DNA from: a virus
IMG/VR virus record: IMGVR_UViG_3300030104_001744
Coordinates: 1-20,282 of that record
Reading direction: 5' to 3' (one strand)
Length of the DNA stretch: 20,282 nt
Shown: one piece after another, positions 345 to 17,969 of the stretch
How positions within the stretch are numbered: the first letter of the stretch is position 1
How the letters are laid out: every line of letters begins with the position of its first letter
Program-made: the position numbers and the translations under genes
The notes under the pieces: model-generated
Told to the model about the DNA's origin: nothing
Seen by the model: only the letters and a program-made list of their open reading frames with translations
Database searches by the model: none

Positions 345-641
345 TTACCACTTTACCTTGTTAGCCCAATAAGCGGCTGACATTTTACCTTTCTTTATAT
401 TTTTACCATGACGTGCTTTAAAACTCTTACGTCTTGCTTTTTGTCTTGCAGATTCTCCTTTCTTAGGCTTACCTGCTGTTTTTACTCCTTGTTGTCCAAA
501 TCTAATTAATTTAGTTTTACCACCTTCTTTAGCCACAACTACGTGTGACTTCTTAGGATGGTTAGGAGTTCTTTTTGGTTTATTATAAGCCGTTACTCCA
601 GCTCTTGTTAATTTAGCGTCTTTCTTTTTTCTCGGTGCCAT
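345..641 (-). CDS. Small basic protein of a marine-phage family (KLIRFGQ...KARRKSFKARH)
   Basis: 98 aa, with 32 Lys/Arg and only three acidic residues. The C-terminal half carries KTKLIRFGQQGVKTAG, then ARRKSFKARHGKNIKKGKMS and a final AAYWANKVKW. I recognise this pattern from small proteins encoded among the structural genes of many marine tailed phages; no function is established to my knowledge. The charge suggests nucleic-acid or capsid-interior binding, which is inference. The start codon directly follows the TAA of the 57-aa gene (TAAATG), and GAGGT lies upstream as a ribosome binding site. It is the last of five consecutive basic genes and the next gene starts one base after its stop. 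An overlapping out-of-frame ORF covering its start is rejected. Confidence 0.85.
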   Translation of the reverse strand: MAPRKKKDAKLTRAGVTAYNKPKRTPNHPKKSHVVVAKEGGKTKLIRFGQQGVKTAGKPKKGESARQKARRKSFKARHGKNIKKGKMSAAYWANKVKW

Positions 642-6765: not shown

Positions 6766-9288
6766 CTAAGCTGCTGTGTAACTTCCAGCATCAATGGTTG
6801 CACTAGAGATAGCTCCACCAACAATACTCATTGTACCATCAGTAAAAGTTCCATCAATTGTTATACCATTAGCTGTCATTGTAACATTACCTACATCAAA
6901 GCTTGAACCTACTCCTTCTACGATTGCTTTCTTTTGAGCTGTAGAAGTTGTTAATGTTCCGCCAGATACATCTAATGTTTTACTTGAGCCAACTGTTACG
7001 TTAGTACCGTCGATAGTTCCTGAATCTATATCAACATTGGTCATATTTTGACTGTCAAAATCAATAGCTCCAGTAGCTGTGAAAGCTCCAAGTTTAGTGA
7101 CGGTTAAAGTATCACCACTAAACGACATATCAGAATCATCTGTAAGTTGTCCGTTTGTTGTAGTAAATACTACTCTACCACTTGTTAAATCATCAGCTAT
7201 AAGTGTATTAGCTCTAAAATCATAAGCTCCTATATCGACGTTAGCTCCAACACCGTTTACAATTGCGGCTTTTTGTGCGGCTGAAGTAGTTAGTGTTCCA
7301 GCACTAACATCTAAGGTTTTACTAGAACCTACAGTTACATTTGTACCGTCAATTGCTCCGCTATCAATATTAACATTGGTCATTGCTTCATCAGAGAAGT
7401 CGACTGCACCAGCCTGTTCATAAGCACCAAGCTTGGTAACTGTTAAAGTATCACCAGAGAATGACATATCAGAGTCATCTGTTAATTCACCGTTAGTTGT
7501 AGTAAATACGACTCTACCACTAGTAAGTGTATCATCCATAAGTCCTGCACAACGGAATTTATAAGAACCAATATCTAAATTTGCTGTTGCTGTTAAAGCA
7601 GCAGTTGTTAAACCAGTAGTAAATGTTGAAGCGTCATCTGCTGTAAAAGCTCCAACTGTTAAATCAGCGTGGTCGAAACCAGTACCGCTTGTGTTCATTG
7701 TAGTTGTTGGTTCTGCTTGTAATAAATCGAATAAGTGATATTCACCATCGGTTGCATCTCTTATTAAACCAGTAAAGGTGTCTTGTGAACCAGATGGGTC
7801 ACATAATCCATAGAATCCAATATCTACTGCATCTGCGGAACTATTTCCGGATGCTAATTTAATCAATGGGTCTTCTACTGTTAATGTAGCAGTGTTTACA
7901 GTTGTAGTATCACCACTAACTGTTAAATCACCAGTTACAGTTAAATTTGCCACTTGTGAACTTCCTGTAGAAGTTATTGCTCCACAGCCAACAGTGCCGA
8001 TGCTTGCAATGTTCGAGGAAGCGTCGAGAACGACAGCTTTGCTTGCAGCAGCAGTACCTGCCGTAACTGAATCTAATACACCCAATTCAGCAGTTGTAAG
8101 AGTTGTTGAATCTAATGTTAATGAAGTGTCACCAGTAATTGTTCCTGTAACAGCTAAATTACCACTTGAAGTAATCGCACCACAACCAACTGTACCAAGA
8201 CCACTTACATTACCAGAAGTATCGAAAGTGTAGTTACCATCAGAAAATGTACCATCAATGGTCAAGTTTCTGAGAGTTCCCAAGTCTTTGTTACTATCAA
8301 CAACCAATGCTTTACTTGCAGCGGCTGTTCCTGCTGTAACTGAATCTAATACACCTAATTCGGCAGTTGTTAAAGTTGTTGAATCTAATGTTAAAGAAGT
8401 ATCACCTGTAATAGTACCAGTAACTGCAAGGTTACCTGAAGTTGTAATAGCTCCACAAGCTAAAGTTCCCACACCAGAAATATTATCTGAATCATCTATA
8501 GTTATTCCACTATCTTGTAAATCATCTGTGCCATGCATACGAACTAATCTATTGTCCGTACCTGATACATCTAATCCACCAGCAGCAGCTTGAAATGTTG
8601 GTGCTGCTCCAGCTCCATTAGATGTTAATACTTGACCGCTATTTCCTGTAGCGACATAAGCTGGGTCTCCTGATGCATCGTATGTAATAAGATTTCCATC
8701 TGTACCACCAGCCATATAAGCTAGTGTAATAGAATTATCTTTAATAGAAACTGCTCCTGAAGATACATCGAAATCACTTGAGGAAAAACTTGCTACACCT
8801 TTTGCTGATGTTGTAGCATCATCTCCTGCAATAGTTACTTCATTACCTGTAATACTTGTAGTTATTCCTGAACCACCAGCAATTGATAAAGCTTCACTAT
8901 CTAAATCAATAGCTATATTACTTCCACTATCTGCGGAAATATCTAAATCTTGTGCTGTTACTTGAGAATCAACATATGCCTTAATAGACGCTTGCGTTGC
9001 TAGCTTAGTTGCATCATCTGATGCCATATTATTCTCATTGAGAATAGGGGCACCTATCCATACAATACCACCAGTTTGGTCAGCAGCATATGCAGCAGCG
9101 GTGTTAGTACCGGCAGTAAGGTTTGTGGCACTTTCTGCGGTAACACCTAAAAATAGATTCCCTCTACCTGCGGCTGTTGCTGTTGTATTTGATGTGTTGA
9201 CGGCGAGTTCTGCAACTTTTAGACCTGCTCCGTGTGCAGGGGCTCCTGCACCGTCGGTCTTACTTTTAATTAAAATTGTATTTGCCAT
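6766..9288 (-). CDS. Large fibre-like structural protein with tandem repeats (840 aa)
   Basis: Starts MANTILIKSKTDGAGAPAHG then LKVAELAVNT...GNLFLGV, the same N-terminal head module as the 1179-aa protein, so the two are paralogues at least there. The shaft holds two duplications: a 91-residue unit around AVTGTITGDTSLTLDSTTLT (offset 273 bp), and two adjacent 113-residue units around SGRVVFTTTNG and GTNVTVGSSKTLDVS (offset 339 bp). Between them lies a module, LTVTGDLTVSGDTTTVNTAT...VEDPLIKLASGN, of a type I know from marine phage fibres; a variant is in the 517-aa gene. There is no membrane segment or enzyme motif. It ends in GSYTAA, like the small acidic gene just before it. RBS AAGGTGAT precedes the ATG. 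Likely a capsid- or tail-attached trimeric fibre. Confidence 0.87.
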   Translation of the reverse strand: MANTILIKSKTDGAGAPAHGAGLKVAELAVNTSNTTATAAGRGNLFLGVTAESATNLTAGTNTAAAYAADQTGGIVWIGAPILNENNMASDDATKLATQASIKAYVDSQVTAQDLDISADSGSNIAIDLDSEALSIAGGSGITTSITGNEVTIAGDDATTSAKGVASFSSSDFDVSSGAVSIKDNSITLAYMAGGTDGNLITYDASGDPAYVATGNSGQVLTSNGAGAAPTFQAAAGGLDVSGTDNRLVRMHGTDDLQDSGITIDDSDNISGVGTLACGAITTSGNLAVTGTITGDTSLTLDSTTLTTAELGVLDSVTAGTAAASKALVVDSNKDLGTLRNLTIDGTFSDGNYTFDTSGNVSGLGTVGCGAITSSGNLAVTGTITGDTSLTLDSTTLTTAELGVLDSVTAGTAAASKAVVLDASSNIASIGTVGCGAITSTGSSQVANLTVTGDLTVSGDTTTVNTATLTVEDPLIKLASGNSSADAVDIGFYGLCDPSGSQDTFTGLIRDATDGEYHLFDLLQAEPTTTMNTSGTGFDHADLTVGAFTADDASTFTTGLTTAALTATANLDIGSYKFRCAGLMDDTLTSGRVVFTTTNGELTDDSDMSFSGDTLTVTKLGAYEQAGAVDFSDEAMTNVNIDSGAIDGTNVTVGSSKTLDVSAGTLTTSAAQKAAIVNGVGANVDIGAYDFRANTLIADDLTSGRVVFTTTNGQLTDDSDMSFSGDTLTVTKLGAFTATGAIDFDSQNMTNVDIDSGTIDGTNVTVGSSKTLDVSGGTLTTSTAQKKAIVEGVGSSFDVGNVTMTANGITIDGTFTDGTMSIVGGAISSATIDAGSYTAA
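6860..7537 (-). repeat. Two tandem 339-bp intragenic repeats
   Basis: Copies at about 7199-7537 and 6860-7198 are adjacent, each coding for 113 residues that begin near LTSGRVVFTTTNG and continue through DDSDMSFSGDTLTVTKLGA and GTNVTVGSSKTLDVS. The offset is exactly 339 bp, measured at the GTTAAAGT word at 7442 and 7103. Boundaries are approximate. Confidence 0.9.
8031..8477 (-). repeat. Two 174-bp intragenic repeats at 273-bp offset
   Basis: Copies lie at about 8304-8477 and 8031-8204. Both encode AVTGTITGDTSLTLDSTTLT, AELGVLDSVTAGTAAASKA. The protein is nearly identical over about 55 residues while the DNA differs at many silent sites. The full period is 91 codons. Confidence 0.9.
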
Positions 9289-9299
9289 ATTTAATCACC

Positions 9300-9485
9300 T
9301 TATGCCGAGGTATAACTACCTCCGCTTACTTTCAATCCTTCCGCTTCCACTTCATCTGTACTAGAATCTCCACTAGTGTTTTTTGGTTCCAAAGAGCCTA
9401 TCTCTGTACCATCATCATTAACGAATTCTATTTTGCCTTCAACGCCAGAACCTCCTCCGGTTACTACAACTCTTGGGTTAGGCAT
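9300..9485 (-). CDS. Small acidic protein between fibre genes (61 aa)
   Basis: I chose the ATG at 9485-9483 because it overlaps the end of the 517-aa gene by 8 bases (ATGCCTAA), the same junction as three others here. A longer reading from 9524 would add 13 residues inside the previous gene. The product starts MPNPRVVVTGGGSGVEGKIE and has a polar, acidic middle (DDGTEIGSLEPKNTSGDSST), with no cysteine or membrane segment. It ends LKVSGGSYTSA, close to the C-terminus of the following 840-aa fibre (AGSYTAA). A fibre-associated cap, chaperone or adaptor is possible; the family is not recognised. Confidence 0.7.
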   Translation of the reverse strand: MPNPRVVVTGGGSGVEGKIEFVNDDGTEIGSLEPKNTSGDSSTDEVEAEGLKVSGGSYTSA

Positions 9486-11031
9486 CTGGCTCAACCTCCA
9501 GTTTTGCGTCTCTTCTTCCTCCAATCACATTCCAATCAAAGCTCCATTCTTTATCTGAGTTTGTTTCAACCCAGAAACCGTTTTCATCTCTATCTTTTAT
9601 CCACACGTTATAATCTCCATATGTTGTTAAATTTACAGTATAGTCAGGGAAAACCATCTTAGACCAATATAAAGGTAGGTCTACTGCTACTTTTCGCCTT
9701 TCATCTACCACATCAAAAGAGCCACGAGCATACATTCCATGCTCAGGTCCTTCTAAAGAACCATAAACTAAACGCTTATTTTCTATTAGAGGATGGGGTA
9801 TATTAAAAGATTTCGTCGTTGCCTCAAGATGCCCCGTAATCGAGACTGCTGCATTTGACGAAGCTGATGTTCCTCCTGTAACTACTAAAGCGGTGGTTCC
9901 ACTATCTCCACTAACACCAGTTATAGTTAAATTTTCACTGTTATCAGATTCGTTTACTGTAATAGTTCCTCCACCATCTTTTTTAAGCATAACATCATTT
10001 ACTGTTATTGCTTGTGTACTTAAACTTAATAAACCTAAACCTTGGTTATCAATCGTAACAGCATCATGTGTTACTGCTGATGTTGCTATATCATTATAAC
10101 TAGAACCATCATTTGTTATTTGCCATTTATCTGTACTTTCATTCCATCTTATTGCTACGTTTGTAGAAGTACCACGTTCTACTTCGATACCTGCGTTTTC
10201 ACTTGGGGTACCTGTTACATCGTTATTTAATATTAATATATTATCATTGATTGTGGTGTTTGTAGTGTGTATGGCTGTAGCAGTACCATTAACTGTAAGG
10301 TTCCCTGTAATTGTAGTATTACCTCCAACTGTTAGGTTACCTGATAAATCAGTAGAAGCAGCATTAACATCTAAAAGAGGATTTGTTATTGTAAAACGAT
10401 TTTCTTTTAATTCTAGTTGACTAGAAGAATTTTTAACTTGCATAATTAGTTCTTCTGAATCTGGAGCATGGATAAATGCTCCTGCATTACTCCCAACCTC
10501 TCCAAAATATAATTTTCTAGAACTATTTAATATTAAACCAGTGTCGGCTACGTGTGTTAGGGTTACATCAGTATCAGTACCAAACCCTAAAACTGCTGAA
10601 TCAGATTTTAAATTAATATTATCTCCTGATATTAAATGTCCAACTGATTTTATATTTCCATCTACTACTAACTTCTCATCAATAGCAGAGTAAGCTAAGG
10701 TTGAACCTATACCTACATTTCCACTATCAAATGTTCTTGTTTTAGAAGTTGCTGCACTAGCACTTTCCTGAGTCCAAGCTGAAGTAGTCACTTCTAAAGC
10801 ATTGAATTTATCATTGAGCGCATTTTTTGATGGTGCTATGTCTGTTACATCAGCCCATGAACCACCAAATGCATCATTGCTGACTTTTGAATCAGCTTTA
10901 TTAGAAATGTATTGTTTAGAAATTAGCCTGTCGTCTAATACTAACGCATGTGTGCGTCTGGTTGATTTTTGAGCTCCTATACCGCCCAACGGTTTTCCAG
11001 TTTTCTTGATATTTCTAGGTATTTTGACCAT
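9478..11031 (-). CDS. Fibre-like structural protein with marine-phage C-terminal domain (517 aa)
   Basis: The N-terminus is basic (MVKIPRNIKKTGKPLGG) and probably the virion attachment part. Residues about 100-230 are beta-repeat shaft. Residues about 235-310 hold ITGNLTVNGTATAIHTTNTT, NDNILILNNDVTG and GIEVERGTSTNVAIRWNEST, a module I recognise from fibre proteins of marine phages. Residues 408-517 form a distinct C-terminal domain beginning SFNIPHPLIENKRLVYGSLE, GPEHGMYARG and ending with aromatic strands (DYNVWIKDRDENGFWVET). The 'IxHP...LxxGSLEGPExxVYxRG' signature is common in structural proteins of cyanophages and other marine phages; its exact role is unknown to me. It directly follows the major capsid gene across a structured intergenic segment. 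RBS AAGGAG is at 11043-11038. Confidence 0.88.
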   Translation of the reverse strand: MVKIPRNIKKTGKPLGGIGAQKSTRRTHALVLDDRLISKQYISNKADSKVSNDAFGGSWADVTDIAPSKNALNDKFNALEVTTSAWTQESASAATSKTRTFDSGNVGIGSTLAYSAIDEKLVVDGNIKSVGHLISGDNINLKSDSAVLGFGTDTDVTLTHVADTGLILNSSRKLYFGEVGSNAGAFIHAPDSEELIMQVKNSSSQLELKENRFTITNPLLDVNAASTDLSGNLTVGGNTTITGNLTVNGTATAIHTTNTTINDNILILNNDVTGTPSENAGIEVERGTSTNVAIRWNESTDKWQITNDGSSYNDIATSAVTHDAVTIDNQGLGLLSLSTQAITVNDVMLKKDGGGTITVNESDNSENLTITGVSGDSGTTALVVTGGTSASSNAAVSITGHLEATTKSFNIPHPLIENKRLVYGSLEGPEHGMYARGSFDVVDERRKVAVDLPLYWSKMVFPDYTVNLTTYGDYNVWIKDRDENGFWVETNSDKEWSFDWNVIGGRRDAKLEVEPDA

Positions 11032-11053
11032 ACATTTCTCCTTGTGGGGTTAG

Positions 11054-11087
11054 TGGCTAGTTTTGTTTGTCGCACTAGCCAAGCGAC
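11054..11087 (-). promoter_or_regulatory. Predicted H-type RNA pseudoknot between capsid and fibre genes
   Basis: On the minus strand GTCGC (11087-11083) pairs with GCGAC (11073-11069), closing a 9-base loop. Eight bases of that loop, TGGCTAGT (11081-11074), pair perfectly with ACTAGCCA (11061-11054). The linkers are one base (11082), none, and seven bases AAACAAA (11068-11062). This is the classic H-type geometry, with an A-rich third loop beside the 5-bp stem. It lies about 30 bases after the capsid stop and 10 bases before the Shine-Dalgarno of the 517-aa gene. Role unknown. Confidence 0.55.
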
Positions 11088-11103
11088 TATATCTTTAGAT
11101 TAG

Positions 11104-11121
11104 TAAAGTCGGTTAACTTTA
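11104..11121 (-). promoter_or_regulatory. Small hairpin over the capsid gene stop codon
   Basis: TAAAGT (11121-11116) and ACTTTA (11109-11104) form a perfect 6-bp stem with a 6-base loop, and the TAA stop of the capsid gene is its 5' arm. It is AU-rich, so weak. With the pseudoknot downstream it makes this 87-base gap the most structured between the capsid-operon genes. No U-tract terminator follows. Confidence 0.35.
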
Positions 11122-12228
11122 ATCGCCAATAACGATTACACCAGCTTCAGGTCTGATAACTTTCAATCCATATCTCATGGACATGTAAGAACCAGTAATT
11201 CCGAATCCGGGGTTAGCTTCTTCTACAGTCAATCCACGTCTTTCGACGTAAGCCATAGGCTTGATAGACATATCGAAAACACCAAATCTGTTCTTTGGTA
11301 TGTAAGAGTTCATTACGACATTTAATCCGTAAAGTTGTCCTACAACACCAGAGGCAGATACGTCGTTAACATAATCTACTCCACCTTTTTGGACTATACC
11401 TGCTGTTCCAGCTGCGCCTGAGAAAGGTACAGTGAAGTCAGCCAAGTTCAATAGAGTCTTATAGTGCATAGGGGATATCATGATTGTGTCTGCATTCAAT
11501 CCTTTTGCTCCGATAAGTTCCATAGCTTGGGTGATGTCACCAAGTGCCAAATCTCCGACTGCGTCTGTGTCGCCGTCAGTACAAACCATGTAGTGGGAAC
11601 CTGTGCTTCCTACACCGAGGTTTGCCAAATCGTCTTTGCTGTATATTCCATACTCTGATATTCGGACATCTGCATCTGCATCTAATCCACCAGAGCCGTT
11701 TGTATCCAATTCACCGAAGAAACCACCGTGCGGGTTGTTAGCGAAAGTTGTAACTTCAGCTTCTGTGTTAGTTGCTGAAATACTTGTGTCGCTAATTCCT
11801 GTACCGTAGGTTGCATCTCCAAGACCGAATAATGCTTTGATTGCGTGTTCCGTAACATGTCTTTCGACTGCTCTTCTAGCTTCGTTCAAAGCTAGTTCCA
11901 TTTCAGAGAAACGGGAGTCTTCTAACATTCTGCGGGTTACACCGACTGCAATTCCCCATTCCTTAACGCTGATACGCTCGTTGCGTAGGTCAGTGTGTTG
12001 GTATGCTGGAGTTGCTCCTTCTTCTAAGGCTTCTAGCTTCATGCTAGGCTTAGAGAAACTTATGTCTACATCCCCACCAGTTTCGGTAGTGAAGCGCTCT
12101 GCGAACATTTCAAGAACAGGCATGCTTGTGACTTTGTAGTCTTGTAAAGCATCTTTGTAATCGACAAGTACACGGTTAGCTACACTAGATAGTGTTGAGG
12201 TTGCGAGACCTTTTTGTGCTGTTACCAT
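11119..12228 (-). CDS. Major capsid protein, HK97 fold
   Basis: 369 aa. The order of elements matches HK97-type capsid proteins. A short N-terminal helix is followed by an extended region. An E-loop-like segment lies around residues 60-97 (EEGATPAYQHTDLRNERISV). A long spine helix at about 98-135 contains RRMLEDSRFSEMELALNEAR. A central insertion at 140-220 is acidic and Gly-rich (ELDTNGSGGLDADADVRISE). The A-domain spans about 230-365 with DTIMISPMHYKTLLNLADF, LYGLNVVMNSYIPKNRFGVF and a final strand GLKVIRPEAGVIVIGD. There is no long N-terminal delta domain, which fits the scaffold being carried by the protease gene. The start is set by AAGGAG about 10 bases before the ATG, at the stop of the decoration gene. 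It assembles the icosahedral head. Confidence 0.93.
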   Translation of the reverse strand: MVTAQKGLATSTLSSVANRVLVDYKDALQDYKVTSMPVLEMFAERFTTETGGDVDISFSKPSMKLEALEEGATPAYQHTDLRNERISVKEWGIAVGVTRRMLEDSRFSEMELALNEARRAVERHVTEHAIKALFGLGDATYGTGISDTSISATNTEAEVTTFANNPHGGFFGELDTNGSGGLDADADVRISEYGIYSKDDLANLGVGSTGSHYMVCTDGDTDAVGDLALGDITQAMELIGAKGLNADTIMISPMHYKTLLNLADFTVPFSGAAGTAGIVQKGGVDYVNDVSASGVVGQLYGLNVVMNSYIPKNRFGVFDMSIKPMAYVERRGLTVEEANPGFGITGSYMSMRYGLKVIRPEAGVIVIGD

Positions 12229-12241
12229 ATTTTATATCTCC

Positions 12242-12643
12242 TTAAATCACCATGACCCTAGTCATCGTGTCTGTGGTTGCGTTGGTTTCTAGAGCGATTG
12301 CTACTATTTTATCCTCGGCTGTTCCATCTGCGTATGCAGTTTTGGTTTCTAGGAAACCGGGTTTTGCACTGTCTACTGACAATTCGTCACCACATGTTAC
12401 TGCATCGGTTATTACATTAAGGATGATTCCGCTTCCGGTTACAACTGAACATTGTGCACCAGATGCTGCATCGGTTAATGCAAACCCTACTATTTCTAAT
12501 AAATTGGATGTTTGAAGTTTGACTGTTCCGTCAGTGTGCATTTTTAATGCTTCACCGGCTTCAATAGCTTCACCAGCTTTGAAATTCATAATTCTTGCTG
12601 GAGCTCCACCATCATTTACTAATACTGTTTTGGTTTCTGCCAT
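12242..12643 (-). CDS. Capsid decoration protein (DUF2190-like)
   Basis: 133 aa with the pattern of DUF2190/decoration proteins: FKAGEAIEAGEALKMHTDGT, then IVGFALTDAASGAQCSVVTG, then ITDAVTCGDELSVDSAKPGF and DKIVAIALETNAT. These form beta-barrel or tulip-like trimers that bind outside the HK97 shell and stabilise it. The place directly before the capsid gene is usual. Two cysteines (about positions 64 and 83) could pair or be buried. It begins two bases after the protease stop, with RBS AAGGAAG overlapping that stop. No signal or membrane segment is present. Confidence 0.83.
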   Translation of the reverse strand: MAETKTVLVNDGGAPARIMNFKAGEAIEAGEALKMHTDGTVKLQTSNLLEIVGFALTDAASGAQCSVVTGSGIILNVITDAVTCGDELSVDSAKPGFLETKTAYADGTAEDKIVAIALETNATTDTMTRVMVI

Positions 12644-12645
12644 AT

Positions 12646-13146
12646 TTATTCTTCCTTATTTTCTTCTTCTACACCATTGAAAACAATTCTTCCATCTTTC
12701 ATCGCGAACATTCGTGATGTTTCTGGAGCTTCTACTTCCTCTGGTTTTGCTTCAGCTTCTACGGATTTACCTTTTCCGAAGGTCCTCTCGGTCTCTTCAG
12801 GGACTGGTATTTGTTCCATAGCGATGCTGAATCCTTCTAGCTTAATCTCATCCCATGCGTTAAGTTCTTTCATACGCTCTTCTTTAGTCTCGTCATCTAC
12901 CTTGCCGAGTAATGCTTCCTTATTGATAATTGCATCAACAAATCCAGAAACGCGTGCTTTTGCAGCATCTGCTTTTCTTAATTCTTCTGCTTCCTCGAAC
13001 TTGGAGATAGTGGCGAGAGCTTCTTCATGAGCTGAAGTTAACTCTGCGTGGACAGATTCCATCTCTGCAATTTTATCTTTCATAGCTGCGAATTCACGCT
13101 CTACGATAGGATTGCTTTCTTTTGTTTCTACTACTTCTTCTGTCAT
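12646..13146 (-). CDS. Possible internal-start scaffold protein nested in the protease gene (166 aa)
   Basis: Within the protease-scaffold frame, Met252 (ATG at 13146-13144, MTEEVVETKESNPIVERE) is preceded by GCGAGGTAACT, a good Shine-Dalgarno resembling the GAGGT before the 98-aa gene. Starting here gives only the acidic coiled-coil scaffold, without protease and cysteine cluster. The arrangement would parallel lambda C/Nu3, where scaffold is made in excess from an internal start. The site is seen; its use is inferred. Confidence 0.5.
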   Translation of the reverse strand: MTEEVVETKESNPIVEREFAAMKDKIAEMESVHAELTSAHEEALATISKFEEAEELRKADAAKARVSGFVDAIINKEALLGKVDDETKEERMKELNAWDEIKLEGFSIAMEQIPVPEETERTFGKGKSVEAEAKPEEVEAPETSRMFAMKDGRIVFNGVEEENKEE

Positions 13147-15211: not shown

Positions 15212-16870
15212 TCATAATCCCCCCGGTATATGCTTATTCAGGGTATTTTTACCTCTTCCGGTCCTAAAAATAGAAGGAACGTCTGTATTTTGACTAGGTC
15301 TTCTAACATTTTTACTTATGTTAGTACTAGCAAAGGTAGCACTAGCTGGTGACATGGACAAACACGCATGTATACCCATTACCGAACTATCACAATAATC
15401 ATCATGTTTACCATCTGGAGCAGCAATTCTCTCTGTTTTTTGGGCTGCATCCATCACATATTCTAATTCACAGTGCTCTCTTATCCATTTATTGACTAAT
15501 TTAGCGTCATCTTTCTCTAAATCCGCAGGATGTGGTATTTTTACTATACCTTGTTGCACATATGATACATAATCTCTGTAAGCTTGGGTTTTAGTACCCT
15601 TTGGGCCTCCAGTAAAAACGAAAGGTATAAAATGTCTTCCATCTTCGTAACAGGCTTTCCTTATGTCTTGCTCAATCGCACCGCCAATACCAGTAGCGTC
15701 AATGATAATACGCTCAGCCCCAAAGTCTGTAGCAGTGTTAATGATACGTTGTCGTTGAAATGGAATGTCATGTCCACCGCTTCTAGGATTGATTTCTTCC
15801 AAAGAGATAAGACGTGCAATATTTCCATCTGCTGCTTTCTCGACGGCCCAAACGCTAATAACAGTACTATTAACGGATTTGCCAATATCCACGGCCACAG
15901 TACAATTCGGATAAACTTTTCCTCGCTCTGCGAAAGAGGTTCCCCGTTGTCTACAGGCTTTGATAGCTTCTGGATTGAAGATGTTTGAGACCGACTCGAC
16001 GAACTCGCACTCATATTCTGTTCTCCAATATATTGAATCTTCACCCCATTCCAACATCTTATCAAGCATTTCTGATTCTGTGTATGGAGGCGTATAGGCT
16101 CTACCAGCCTTTACCGCATCTCTCCATGTATACACTAATCTTGTAAACGTATCTGCATAAGCATCGTCATATAAATAACGCCACATGTGATTTTCTTTAC
16201 TTTTCGGGGTACCCAAGTTAATAAAGGGTGCTTTGTTCGCTACAATACAGGGCTCTACATTGTCAATGAATAATTTATCATCTATAAGTGGACTCTCATC
16301 CACAATTAAGAAGGTAGGGTGCTGGCCACGTATAGCTTGCCCTTGGTTAGATGCAGCTACCGGAGCTCTACGCAAAACAGTGCCCCCCTTAAGTGTTATG
16401 TTAGGCTTGTTATGGAATCTGTAATTCTTAACTAAGCCTGATAAAAAGGCATTATCAGCGAAATGCCTATAAACGTAATTAAATATAAGTGAAGCTTGGT
16501 CCTCAGATGGAGCCAAGATAAATATTAAATCTCTAAATCTTTTAAAGAACATATATACAGTAGCAGCAACAGAGAGGGCGTAGGATTTACCAGAGCCTCG
16601 TGGAGCCAAGATAGCCATTTTGCGCTGTTTTTCATTTGCGGGGTGAGTGAGGGCTGTGACAACTATACTTTCTTGTAAAGGTCTTAACCTCAAAGGTCTG
16701 TTTTGGTTATCTACAAGATAAGCTTCACAAAATGCACGAACTAATGTCGTCATTTTTTTCTTATCGTGTCTACATTTTTCGAATATATTCTCTAAAGCTC
16801 TTGAATCATGTGCTCCTGCACCTGATATTGCGGCATTAAACTTTTTCGTCTCGTTCACTATCGCCTTCAT
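15212..16870 (-). CDS. terL: Large terminase subunit (packaging ATPase-nuclease)
   Basis: 552 aa, full length for the family. ATPase domain: Walker A at 89-96 (APRGSGKS), Walker B at 187-192 (FLIVDE, with the catalytic Glu) and a coupling motif near 217-224 (INLGTPKS). RNase-H-like nuclease domain: first Asp at 328 (VAVDIGKS), second at 391 (RIIIDATGIGG) and the last acidic cluster at 486-491 (DGKHDD). The enzyme docks on the portal, translocates DNA with ATP and cuts the concatemer. AGGAGA nine bases before the ATG supports this start, which overlaps the preceding gene by 35 bases. The TGA stop lies one base before the P4 promoter core. All key residues are present. Confidence 0.95.
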   Translation of the reverse strand: MKAIVNETKKFNAAISGAGAHDSRALENIFEKCRHDKKKMTTLVRAFCEAYLVDNQNRPLRLRPLQESIVVTALTHPANEKQRKMAILAPRGSGKSYALSVAATVYMFFKRFRDLIFILAPSEDQASLIFNYVYRHFADNAFLSGLVKNYRFHNKPNITLKGGTVLRRAPVAASNQGQAIRGQHPTFLIVDESPLIDDKLFIDNVEPCIVANKAPFINLGTPKSKENHMWRYLYDDAYADTFTRLVYTWRDAVKAGRAYTPPYTESEMLDKMLEWGEDSIYWRTEYECEFVESVSNIFNPEAIKACRQRGTSFAERGKVYPNCTVAVDIGKSVNSTVISVWAVEKAADGNIARLISLEEINPRSGGHDIPFQRQRIINTATDFGAERIIIDATGIGGAIEQDIRKACYEDGRHFIPFVFTGGPKGTKTQAYRDYVSYVQQGIVKIPHPADLEKDDAKLVNKWIREHCELEYVMDAAQKTERIAAPDGKHDDYCDSSVMGIHACLSMSPASATFASTNISKNVRRPSQNTDVPSIFRTGRGKNTLNKHIPGGL

Positions 16871-17162
16871 TGGCTAATTCTCCTAAAAGTGAAGCAAAAT
16901 CTTCTGATTTAGTTTCTGTTACAGTAGGTACTTCAATATTAAGAGCGCGAAACTCAGTATGAATATCGCGTACAATACTGTTCCTCTGTCGCAATAACTC
17001 TGTTCGAGCGTGTACATCCCGAATAGATAATAAAATTTCTTCCCAAAGCACGTCTTCAAGAGCAAGATTTCGCGCCAGAAGGCGGACAAGTTCTTTATGA
17101 CGTTCATATTCAGCTTCTCCGACCCTCTTACGTAAACGCGCTTCGTATTCCTCGACGTCCAT
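16836..17162 (-). CDS. Candidate small terminase subunit (108 aa)
   Basis: A highly charged, helical protein immediately before the large terminase, with its 3' end overlapping that gene by 35 bases. The N-terminal 75 residues suggest two or three helices (EEYEARLRKRVGEAEYERHK, LVRLLARNLALEDVLWEEIL, ELLRQRNSIVRDIHTEF). The last 30 are acidic and probably flexible, ending NEGDSERDEKV. Small terminases are usually 100-180 aa, form rings, recognise viral DNA and sit directly upstream of terL. Length, charge and position fit, but a clear helix-turn-helix is not obvious, so this is by context. The start shares a base with the previous stop (TAATG). Confidence 0.65.
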   Translation of the reverse strand: MDVEEYEARLRKRVGEAEYERHKELVRLLARNLALEDVLWEEILLSIRDVHARTELLRQRNSIVRDIHTEFRALNIEVPTVTETKSEDFASLLGELANEGDSERDEKV

Positions 17163-17611
17163 TACTTGGCTTCGTCGATAGCGGCCTTAACTTTAGATTT
17201 GACTAATGCTGCAAGCTCATCATCTTTTTCATCCCAAGCTGTAATTAATACATTTTTAACTAAAGAGTCTTTGACATGCTTTTGTGCAGTTTCGTCCATT
17301 TTTTCAAAAACCTTTTGTTGGGCTTTTGTCATGTTCTTATCAAGCAAGTCCATTAATTCTGCTTCGTTATTCTTTATATATTTAAAGACTAACTCTTTTA
17401 CTGCTGGTACAGTATAAGCGATGTATCCGCCCATACCTAATACTACAGCACATAAAGCCATCAGTAATGGTTCGTCCATGATAGTATCTAATAGACCTGA
17501 TTCTGTTACAGTGTCAATAATAGCTGTTACGTTTCCTTCTTCAGCAGTGTTATTGTCTCCTGCTGTCATATTGCCATTATCGGCTGTGTTGTTACTTGTT
17601 TCGTTTGCCAT
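17162..17611 (-). CDS. Membrane-anchored protein with sequon-rich N-terminus (149 aa)
   Basis: Residues 1-30 contain five N-x-S/T sequons (MANETSNNTADNGNMTAGDN, then NTAEEGNVT). Residues about 48-70 are one hydrophobic helix (PLLMALCAVVLGMGGYIAYT). The remaining 80 residues are charged amphipathic helices (ELMDLLDKNMTKAQQKVFEK...). There is no cleavable signal, so the likely topology is N-terminus outside and glycosylated, C-terminus in the cytoplasm. It is the first gene after promoter P3, with RBS AAAGGTGA before the ATG, and is coupled to the small terminase candidate by TAATG. A membrane protein heading the packaging operon is unusual; it could be a lysis, superinfection or envelope-associated factor. 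Family not recognised. Confidence 0.78.
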   Translation of the reverse strand: MANETSNNTADNGNMTAGDNNTAEEGNVTAIIDTVTESGLLDTIMDEPLLMALCAVVLGMGGYIAYTVPAVKELVFKYIKNNEAELMDLLDKNMTKAQQKVFEKMDETAQKHVKDSLVKNVLITAWDEKDDELAALVKSKVKAAIDEAK

Positions 17612-17647
17612 AGGTTATTCACCTTTAAAACATTAAGAACAAAGCTC

Positions 17648-17662
17648 TATATAAAGCTTTCG
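17648..17662 (-). promoter_or_regulatory. Promoter P3 (archaeal BRE/TATA) before 149-aa/terminase operon
   Basis: CGAAAGCTTTATATA on the minus strand, identical over 15 bases to P4. The TAA stop of the 15-aa cysteine peptide (17665-17663) abuts its 5' end. The core ends 37 bases before the next ATG, giving a leader of about 13 bases that just includes the AAAGGTGA ribosome site. Confidence 0.8.
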
Positions 17663-17710
17663 TTACTCAGAACAGTCACACTTACAATCGCAGTTATCAC
17701 AACAGCACAT
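17663..17710 (-). CDS. 15-aa cysteine-rich micropeptide (metallothionein-like)
   Basis: Reads MCCCDNCDCKCDCSE and then TAA: 7 of 15 residues are Cys, mostly as CxC. The ATG (17710-17708) has AAAGGAGA about 9 bases upstream, one of the strongest Shine-Dalgarno sites in the window. It is the only open frame between promoters P2 and P3, so it seems to be a one-gene transcription unit with its own promoter. CxC clusters with Asp/Lys spacers resemble metallothioneins and could bind Zn, Cu or an Fe-S cluster. It could instead be a cysteine-sensing leader peptide, but the only genes after it begin at a separate promoter. No homolog is claimed. Its ribosome site and promoter argue against chance. Confidence 0.6.
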   Translation of the reverse strand: MCCCDNCDCKCDCSE

Positions 17711-17797
17711 ATTATCTTTCTCCTTTTATTTTGTGTGGCCCTCAGAAGACGCGTTTTGCGTTAAATTCTGTGGTTCCGTGGTCTGTTAGAGAGCCAC
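17711..17797 (-). promoter_or_regulatory. Structured 5' leader of the cysteine micropeptide
   Basis: On the minus strand GTGGCTCTC (17797-17789) pairs with GAGGGCCAC (17743-17735): 9 bp including one G-U. Inside, AGAC and GTCT can add a second short helix beyond an internal loop. The structure ends about 12 bases before the AAAGGAG ribosome site. P2 would start transcription just upstream of it, giving a leader of about 86 bases in a genome whose other leaders are almost absent. Confidence 0.45.
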
Positions 17798-17819
17798 TAT
17801 AATACGTATGTAGTGCTAG

Positions 17820-17834
17820 TATATAAAGCTTACC
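17820..17834 (-). promoter_or_regulatory. Promoter P2 (archaeal BRE/TATA) before the cysteine micropeptide
   Basis: GGTAAGCTTTATATA on the minus strand, sharing the 12-base AAGCTTTATATA core with P1, P3 and P4. The stop of the zinc-ribbon gene is about 10 bases upstream. The core ends 110 bases before the micropeptide ATG, far more than at the other three promoters. Confidence 0.75.
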
Positions 17835-17844
17835 ACTTACTTAT

Positions 17845-17961
17845 TTATAGTCGCTTTTCAGATAAAACTCTTCCACCATCTTCAAGAAAACATTTCATAC
17901 ATCTATCAGTGTCACTAGGCTTAAGCTTGCGTCCACAGTGTTTGCAATATCTTGCGTCCAT
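17845..17961 (-). CDS. 38-aa zinc-ribbon protein
   Basis: Reads MDARYCKHCGRKLKPSDTD followed by RCMKCFLEDGGRV and a basic end, closing with TAA. Cys6-x2-Cys9 (CKHCGR) and Cys21-x2-Cys24 (CMKC) make a complete four-cysteine zinc ribbon with the usual GR/K after the first knuckle. Such tiny ribbons often bind nucleic acid or partner proteins; the target cannot be told. The ATG lies 8 bases after the TAG of the 190-aa membrane protein, with AGGT as ribosome site, so it is the third gene of the P1 operon. The paired CxxC motifs make chance unlikely. Confidence 0.82.
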   Translation of the reverse strand: MDARYCKHCGRKLKPSDTDRCMKCFLEDGGRVLSEKRL

Positions 17962-17969
17962 AGTTATAC

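Follow-up and report, generated by a model that had tools for sequence, protein, structure and literature searches.

Conserved structured RNAs are, to our knowledge, almost undescribed in archaeal viruses. Among the viral RNAs with which such an element might be compared, the pRNA of phage phi29 is about 120–174 nucleotides (nt) long and oligomerizes by loop–loop kissing. The putRNA of phage HK022 (putL/putR) is about 70 nt long and works in cis as part of the growing transcript, where it engages RNA polymerase (PMC9378689). The subject of this report is a folded leader RNA of 64 nt, together with the gene for a 15-amino-acid (15-aa) cysteine-rich peptide that lies behind it, on the minus strand of the virus record IMGVR_UViG_3300030104_001744, whose whole analysed stretch of 20,282 nt is hereafter called the window. 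Combining the window with its relatives, we assign a probability of about one half to the reading that the locus holds two separable features in one short unit, namely an RNA that forms a 5′ leader and acts in cis on its own, and an inserted gene for a cysteine-rich peptide. The RNA, which we regard as the main finding, is compact and single-copy and is present in almost all contigs of a marine virus group (>130 distinct contexts), where it stands at a defined, predicted transcription start (+1); its natural variants are built in, and its structure and role are therefore directly testable.

Like the HK022 element, the RNA described here is virus-encoded, confined to a single lineage, similar in size (59–66 nt) and apparently folded at the start of the nascent transcript. 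However, put consists of two consecutive stem-loops, whereas the present RNA is a single domain of nested helices closed by a terminal stem; moreover, put acts on a bacterial RNA polymerase, whereas the promoters here are of the archaeal type and an action on RNA polymerase is proposed by analogy only. Further strong TATA boxes lie downstream (17655, 15203), so that long-range antitermination is not obviously needed at this locus and it becomes less likely that a single long late operon is transcribed by processive antitermination. With the phi29 pRNA, the element shares a location near packaging genes and the pairing of its 5′ and 3′ ends; the pRNA, however, works with a different packaging ATPase, and inspection of the present RNA revealed no obvious self-complementary loops.

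Relatives were gathered from IMG/VR by means of the terminase large subunit and are treated as clade 1 and clade 2, the latter being those found with the terminase of locus L197. Script comparison of the loci identified the leader, and not the peptide, as the conserved part. Nearly all relatives in which the upstream region is present have a single copy per genome of a structured RNA of 59–66 nt (about 63 nt), always upstream of a membrane-protein gene (mp), a 108-aa open reading frame (ORF) and the terminase gene. In clade 1, the consensus GTGGCYC...RGACCAC..AACC-CACAGG...ACGCA..TGCGTCT...GGGGCCACA holds a constant place in nearly all loci, usually with a second promoter (the P2 promoter, as distinct from the P1 promoter in front of the RNA) immediately behind it and no intervening ORF. 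Such recurrence as a conserved element, in almost every relative whose sequence covers the stretch, makes the leader more than a product of chance. An initial DNA-pattern scan of viral contigs returned many chance matches besides the true ones, and the covariance model R1, built from 35 sequences (alignment A2), matched essentially every clade-1 locus containing the RNA stretch, including L023–L032, which the motif search had missed. The window element scored 72.5 bits against R1 (E 8e-15), and seven of nine longer records had a sense match, with one copy in each. The core CC-CACAGG is near-invariant in alignments A1 and A2 and remains recognizable in clade 2. No covariance model of Rfam 15 matched at gathering, and the window stretch had no Rfam match even at E<=10; a blastn search of the RNA against phage records gave a chance match only, and ARAGORN reported 0 tRNA or tmRNA genes in RNA-containing loci, e.g. 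L206. The folded leader RNA is previously uncatalogued. It resembles the archaeal H/ACA and C/D guide RNAs in being small and stem-closed, with the clade-1 RNA ending in ...CCACA; inspection of the alignments, however, showed that ACA is absent in clade 2, that there is no kink-turn and that the internal loop lacks tandem GA, while of the C/D features RUGAUGA is missing and CUGA occurs only in the window's subgroup.

In the window, the leader measures 87 nt from +1 to the ATG of the peptide and contains a 9-bp terminal stem and a 4-bp inner helix, with a minimum free energy of −19.9 kcal/mol (z about −3.7, i.e. −3.65) that 0 of 200 shuffles matched. The original prediction, made from the window alone, had described a leader of this form, and promoter, fold and the peptide MCCCDNCDCKCDCSE are all present where it had placed them, so that as an observation it is confirmed, whereas its interpretation is partly supported. 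The mp leader behind the P2 promoter is only ~14 nt long and its structure is not significant (z −0.63). The true RNA unit is the stretch 17734–17797 plus its TATA box. Across the family, an 8–10-bp terminal stem closes on +1 and encloses a 3–4-bp helix and a small hairpin, and a C/A-rich, single-stranded conserved core (RGRCCA...CC-CACAGG) lies between these elements. For structural analysis, 102 distinct RNA sequences were collected from both clades. Parsimony events on their tree at 12 core pairs comprised 26 that keep pairing (5 of them double) and 7 that break it, as against 79 keeping (5 of them double) and 120 breaking among the 132 column pairs of wrong-partner controls. Within clade 1 alone, two helices are 99.7 % paired, compared with <=57 % in slid controls, and show 15 two-sided changes. 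The first pair of the inner P2 helix interchanges between AU, GC and GU, and P3 is the weakest helix and is variable in clade 1. Judged from these alignments, the leader is a real RNA structure, and the compensatory changes on which the original prediction had staked its stem were found. That the conserved stretch acts instead as DNA, i.e. as a packaging (pac/cos) or replication site near the terminase gene, which begins about 0.9 kb downstream in the window, is very improbable, given that the distance to the TATA box is fixed at 29–30 nt although the spacer is free, that changes in the stems are compensatory, and that one stem pair is dominated by a conserved G-U wobble (UG in 71/102), which fits an RNA better than a DNA palindrome.

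Clade 2 carries a diverged form of the element (e.g. GGGCACCCGCCACAGGGCCATTGCTCCACAGGTTACTTATCGCAAGTGCCACCGTGGGAGCCC), which R1 scores weakly (E about 0.3–10) and whose homology with the clade-1 RNA is indicated by its identical position, its distance to the TATA box and the shared RGRCCA / CC-CACAGG core. Its terminal stem has been rebuilt by complementary changes, as in GGGCACCCGC/GUGGGAGCCC and GGGCUCUCGC/GUGAGAGUCCC, where clade 1 has GUGGCUCC/GGGGCCAC; a U-G intermediate of the GGGCUCUCGC/GUGAGAGUCCC stem exists in L283, L310, L311 and L313 have GACCUC/GAGGUC, and further variants include GGGU-AA-CUC/GAG-AA-ACCC and GGGC-GA-CUC/GAG-UA-GCCC. The inner hairpin also varies with pairing kept (GCUU-ACGC-AAGU, ACUU-AUCGC-AAGU, GGC-AUAC-GCC). 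The Shine-Dalgarno (SD) sequence and ATG of mp follow the clade-2 RNA within a few bases, with no second promoter. Throughout clade 2 the mp leader hardly changes from AATATGGAGATATCAACATATG (e.g. L274 after 2258), also between genomes whose RNA stems differ.

In 140/140 distinct contexts, the first T of the TATA box stands 29 or 30 nt from the start of the RNA (30 nt in the window, with the predicted +1 at 17797). Archaeal TATA-to-start distances are well established, and with this spacing transcription would thus start (+1) at the first nucleotide of the terminal stem. The sequence behind the RNA was classified for 137 contexts, 94 from clade 1 and 43 from clade 2. The TATA box of the P2 promoter comes within <=15 nt in 69 of the 94, a cysteine-rich peptide follows in 18 (about a fifth), the P2 promoter is further away in five and another ORF follows in two (L209, L028); in clade 2, mp follows directly in 41/43, two contexts are unclear and a cysteine-rich peptide is found in 0/43. 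Locus L021 (576–1676) has a 366-aa ORF, which we would guess to be a virion-type protein, between the RNA and the P2 promoter and mp. Since its cargo varies in this way, the RNA appears indifferent to what follows it, which favours an autonomous element over one devoted to regulating the peptide or, within clade 1, mp.

This distribution also undoes the idea of the original prediction that leader and peptide form one unit in which a metal- or cysteine-sensing riboregulator serves the peptide. Adjacency in the window and in those 18 clade-1 contexts speaks for such an arrangement, but it is scarcely credible, because nearly all genomes have the RNA but only a minority the peptide, and similar peptides also stand at sites that no RNA precedes. 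Nor is a whole promoter devoted to the peptide as a general rule, as in the 69 clade-1 contexts the P1 promoter drives the RNA alone before the next promoter is reached. The same 69 contexts lend themselves to the main alternative, in our view rather unlikely, in which the P1 promoter produces a discrete, trans-acting viral noncoding RNA of about 65 nt that binds a viral or host target, e.g. the packaging motor, RNA polymerase or the ribosome. The pairing of the 5′ and 3′ ends, the nearly invariant unpaired core and the single copy beside packaging genes would suit this alternative; however, no U-rich terminator lies behind the RNA in either clade, and the clade-2 RNA runs within a few nt into the SD of mp without a second promoter. 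That the RNA serves as a riboswitch, or as a leader bound by a protein, and so governs translation of mp in clade 2 or of the downstream ORF, would explain the 5′ location, the compact fold and the position directly before the mp SD in clade 2, yet we consider it improbable. Clade-1 genomes have a promoter, a peptide ORF or the 366-aa ORF between the RNA and mp while the RNA is equally conserved, its core does not, on inspection, track the downstream SD sequence, and no Rfam riboswitch matched. Sequestration of the SD by the RNA, assessed by eye, was not supported.

According to our preferred reading, a virus-lineage-specific RNA of about 63 nt would constitute the exact 5′ end of the P1-promoter transcript and would act in cis as its 5′ leader domain, whatever gene follows, be it the P2 promoter with mp, a cysteine-rich peptide, the 366-aa ORF or mp itself. 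Candidate targets include the elongating RNA polymerase, mRNA stability or 5′-end protection, and ribosome loading. In a minority of clade-1 genomes, a gene of 13–24 codons with its own SD would have been inserted behind the RNA, and its cysteine-rich product would be translated from P1-promoter transcripts and probably bind a thiophilic metal or Fe-S cluster. Several points weigh against this reading. An R-scape-like test for covariation over the complete set of 2,278 column pairs yielded nothing significant (best pair E 0.25); two pairs passed (rescaled E about 0.002 and 0.01) only with the test restricted to the 14 proposed pairs, and the stem columns had been aligned manually to fit the pairing. 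Single-sequence folds of clade-2 RNAs have modest z-scores (−1.6, −1.2), and a few relatives collected by terminase have no RNA match, although most of these are contig ends. In clade 2 the RNA does no more than precede mp as its leader, so that control of mp is equally possible there; transcripts from the clade-1 P2 promoter would lack the RNA, and a role in mp expression becomes less likely as a result. More speculatively, the element could be a discrete noncoding RNA that acts in trans, or it could resemble put and remodel an RNA polymerase of the archaeal type; in either case tiny metal-binding peptides would have used its promoter as a place to land. We hold this tentative proposal to be possible at most. 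If it were true, no widely conserved structured RNA would have been described before from tailed viruses of archaea.

The peptides form a family of their own. A census of ATG-initiated ORFs of 10–45 aa with >=28 % cysteine and a preceding SD yielded 16 distinct cysteine-rich peptides in 49 locus matches, the loci overlapping in part, and no such SD-preceded peptide in three mononucleotide shuffles of all loci. One further peptide seen by eye, MACKCCCNCSCDCCEKEEE in L014, brings the total to about 17 distinct sequences of 13–24 aa. Those located behind the RNA include MCKICEHCDCENCDCSCECCKADI, MCCKEGCNCECCD, MCCKENCECECCE, MDCDCKECNCECCD and MNCDCDKCSCECCS, and similar peptides stand elsewhere, with no RNA in front, in L023, L055, L070, L086 and L203. 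Throughout the family the cysteines are kept, in CxC/CC spacing. The peptide MCCIDCECCEKCDCSCCKEEE, which is located elsewhere and not behind the RNA, exists in two DNA versions with eight synonymous and no nonsynonymous differences, and such synonymous-only divergence strongly indicates that the peptide itself is under selection. Together with the retention of cysteines and SD, the comparison supports the cysteine-rich peptide as a real, selected product, as had been proposed. Because of the CxC/CC spacing, it is plausible that the peptides bind a thiophilic metal or an Fe-S cluster. They resemble metallothioneins and other CxC-type peptides in their very high cysteine content, their CxC and CC spacing and their acidic/basic spacers; unlike metallothioneins, they have only 13–24 residues. 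Searches of PHROGs and the PDB gave no match, at a length too short for strong conclusions. Standard gene callers miss genes of this size, and comparative data could hardly be expected to reveal many shorter protein-coding genes that recur and are under selection. In L322, a longer ORF, MNDFEQEKLSQEVAGLHEVIEALLLKLDCCCECDCIDAEEELPDEEE, upstream of the RNA has a CCCECDC-type motif at its C-terminus, as if the cysteine motif had been fused to a helical protein.

Table 1. Features of the leader RNA locus in the window
Feature	Position	Strand	Basis
P1 promoter TATA box TTTATATA, archaeal type	17820..17827	−	Sequence
Structured RNA element, 64 nt here	17734..17797	−	Homologues, covariance-model match, fold
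Terminal stem (P1 stem), 5′ strand GUGGCUCUC	17789..17797	−	9 bp with 17735–17743; compensatory across clades
Terminal stem (P1 stem), 3′ strand GAGGGCCAC	17735..17743	−	9 bp with 17789–17797; compensatory across clades
Inner P2 helix, 5′ strand AGAC	17781..17784	−	Pairs with GUCU 17747–17750
Inner P2 helix, 3′ strand GUCU	17747..17750	−	Partner of AGAC 17781–17784
Conserved, apparently unpaired core ACCACAG (family CC-CACAGG)	17768..17774	−	Alignments
SD-like sequence AAAGGAGA of peptide	17719..17726	−	Kept in all peptide-bearing relatives
ORF of 15-aa cysteine-rich peptide MCCCDNCDCKCDCSE, ATG at 17710	17663..17710	−	Recurrent family, cysteines conserved
P2 promoter TATA box TTTATATA, drives mp	17648..17655	−	Sequence
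mp, 149-aa membrane-type protein; directly behind the RNA in clade 2	17162..17611	−	
108-aa ORF between mp and terminase	16836..17162	−	
Terminase large subunit	15212..16870	−	PHROG/Pfam terminase (Terminase_6N/TerL)

Two further genes of the window recur around the element in relatives. A 38-aa zinc-ribbon-like protein (MDARYCKHCGRKLKPSDTDRCMKCF..., 17846–17962, minus strand) is kept in many of them, at a varying distance from the RNA. A lysine-rich gene of 98 aa, ending in ...KKGKMSAAYWANKVKW, is found towards the opposite end of the window (345–641, minus strand) but immediately upstream of the P1 promoter in L001, L004 and L005, and module order has therefore been rearranged.

The viruses themselves form an uncultivated, marine group that is probably archaeal, a label given because of the TATA boxes. 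A search with the terminase against 84,980 genomes found no relative and no host, and phage records gave remote terminase and polymerase matches only, the closest being Halogranum tailed virus 1 (24 %). Long relatives encode PolB, CobS/CobT-like proteins, a class II ribonucleotide reductase and RecU. The class II-type reductase of L240 (G001; 15835–17700) had as its only relatives found two metagenome-assembled genomes of Nomurabacteria (Patescibacteria), at 47–49 % identity. The same 67-kb relative carries, at 7760–12974, a cluster with a glycosyltransferase gene and several 2-oxoglutarate-Fe(II) oxygenase genes beside DNA polymerase B.
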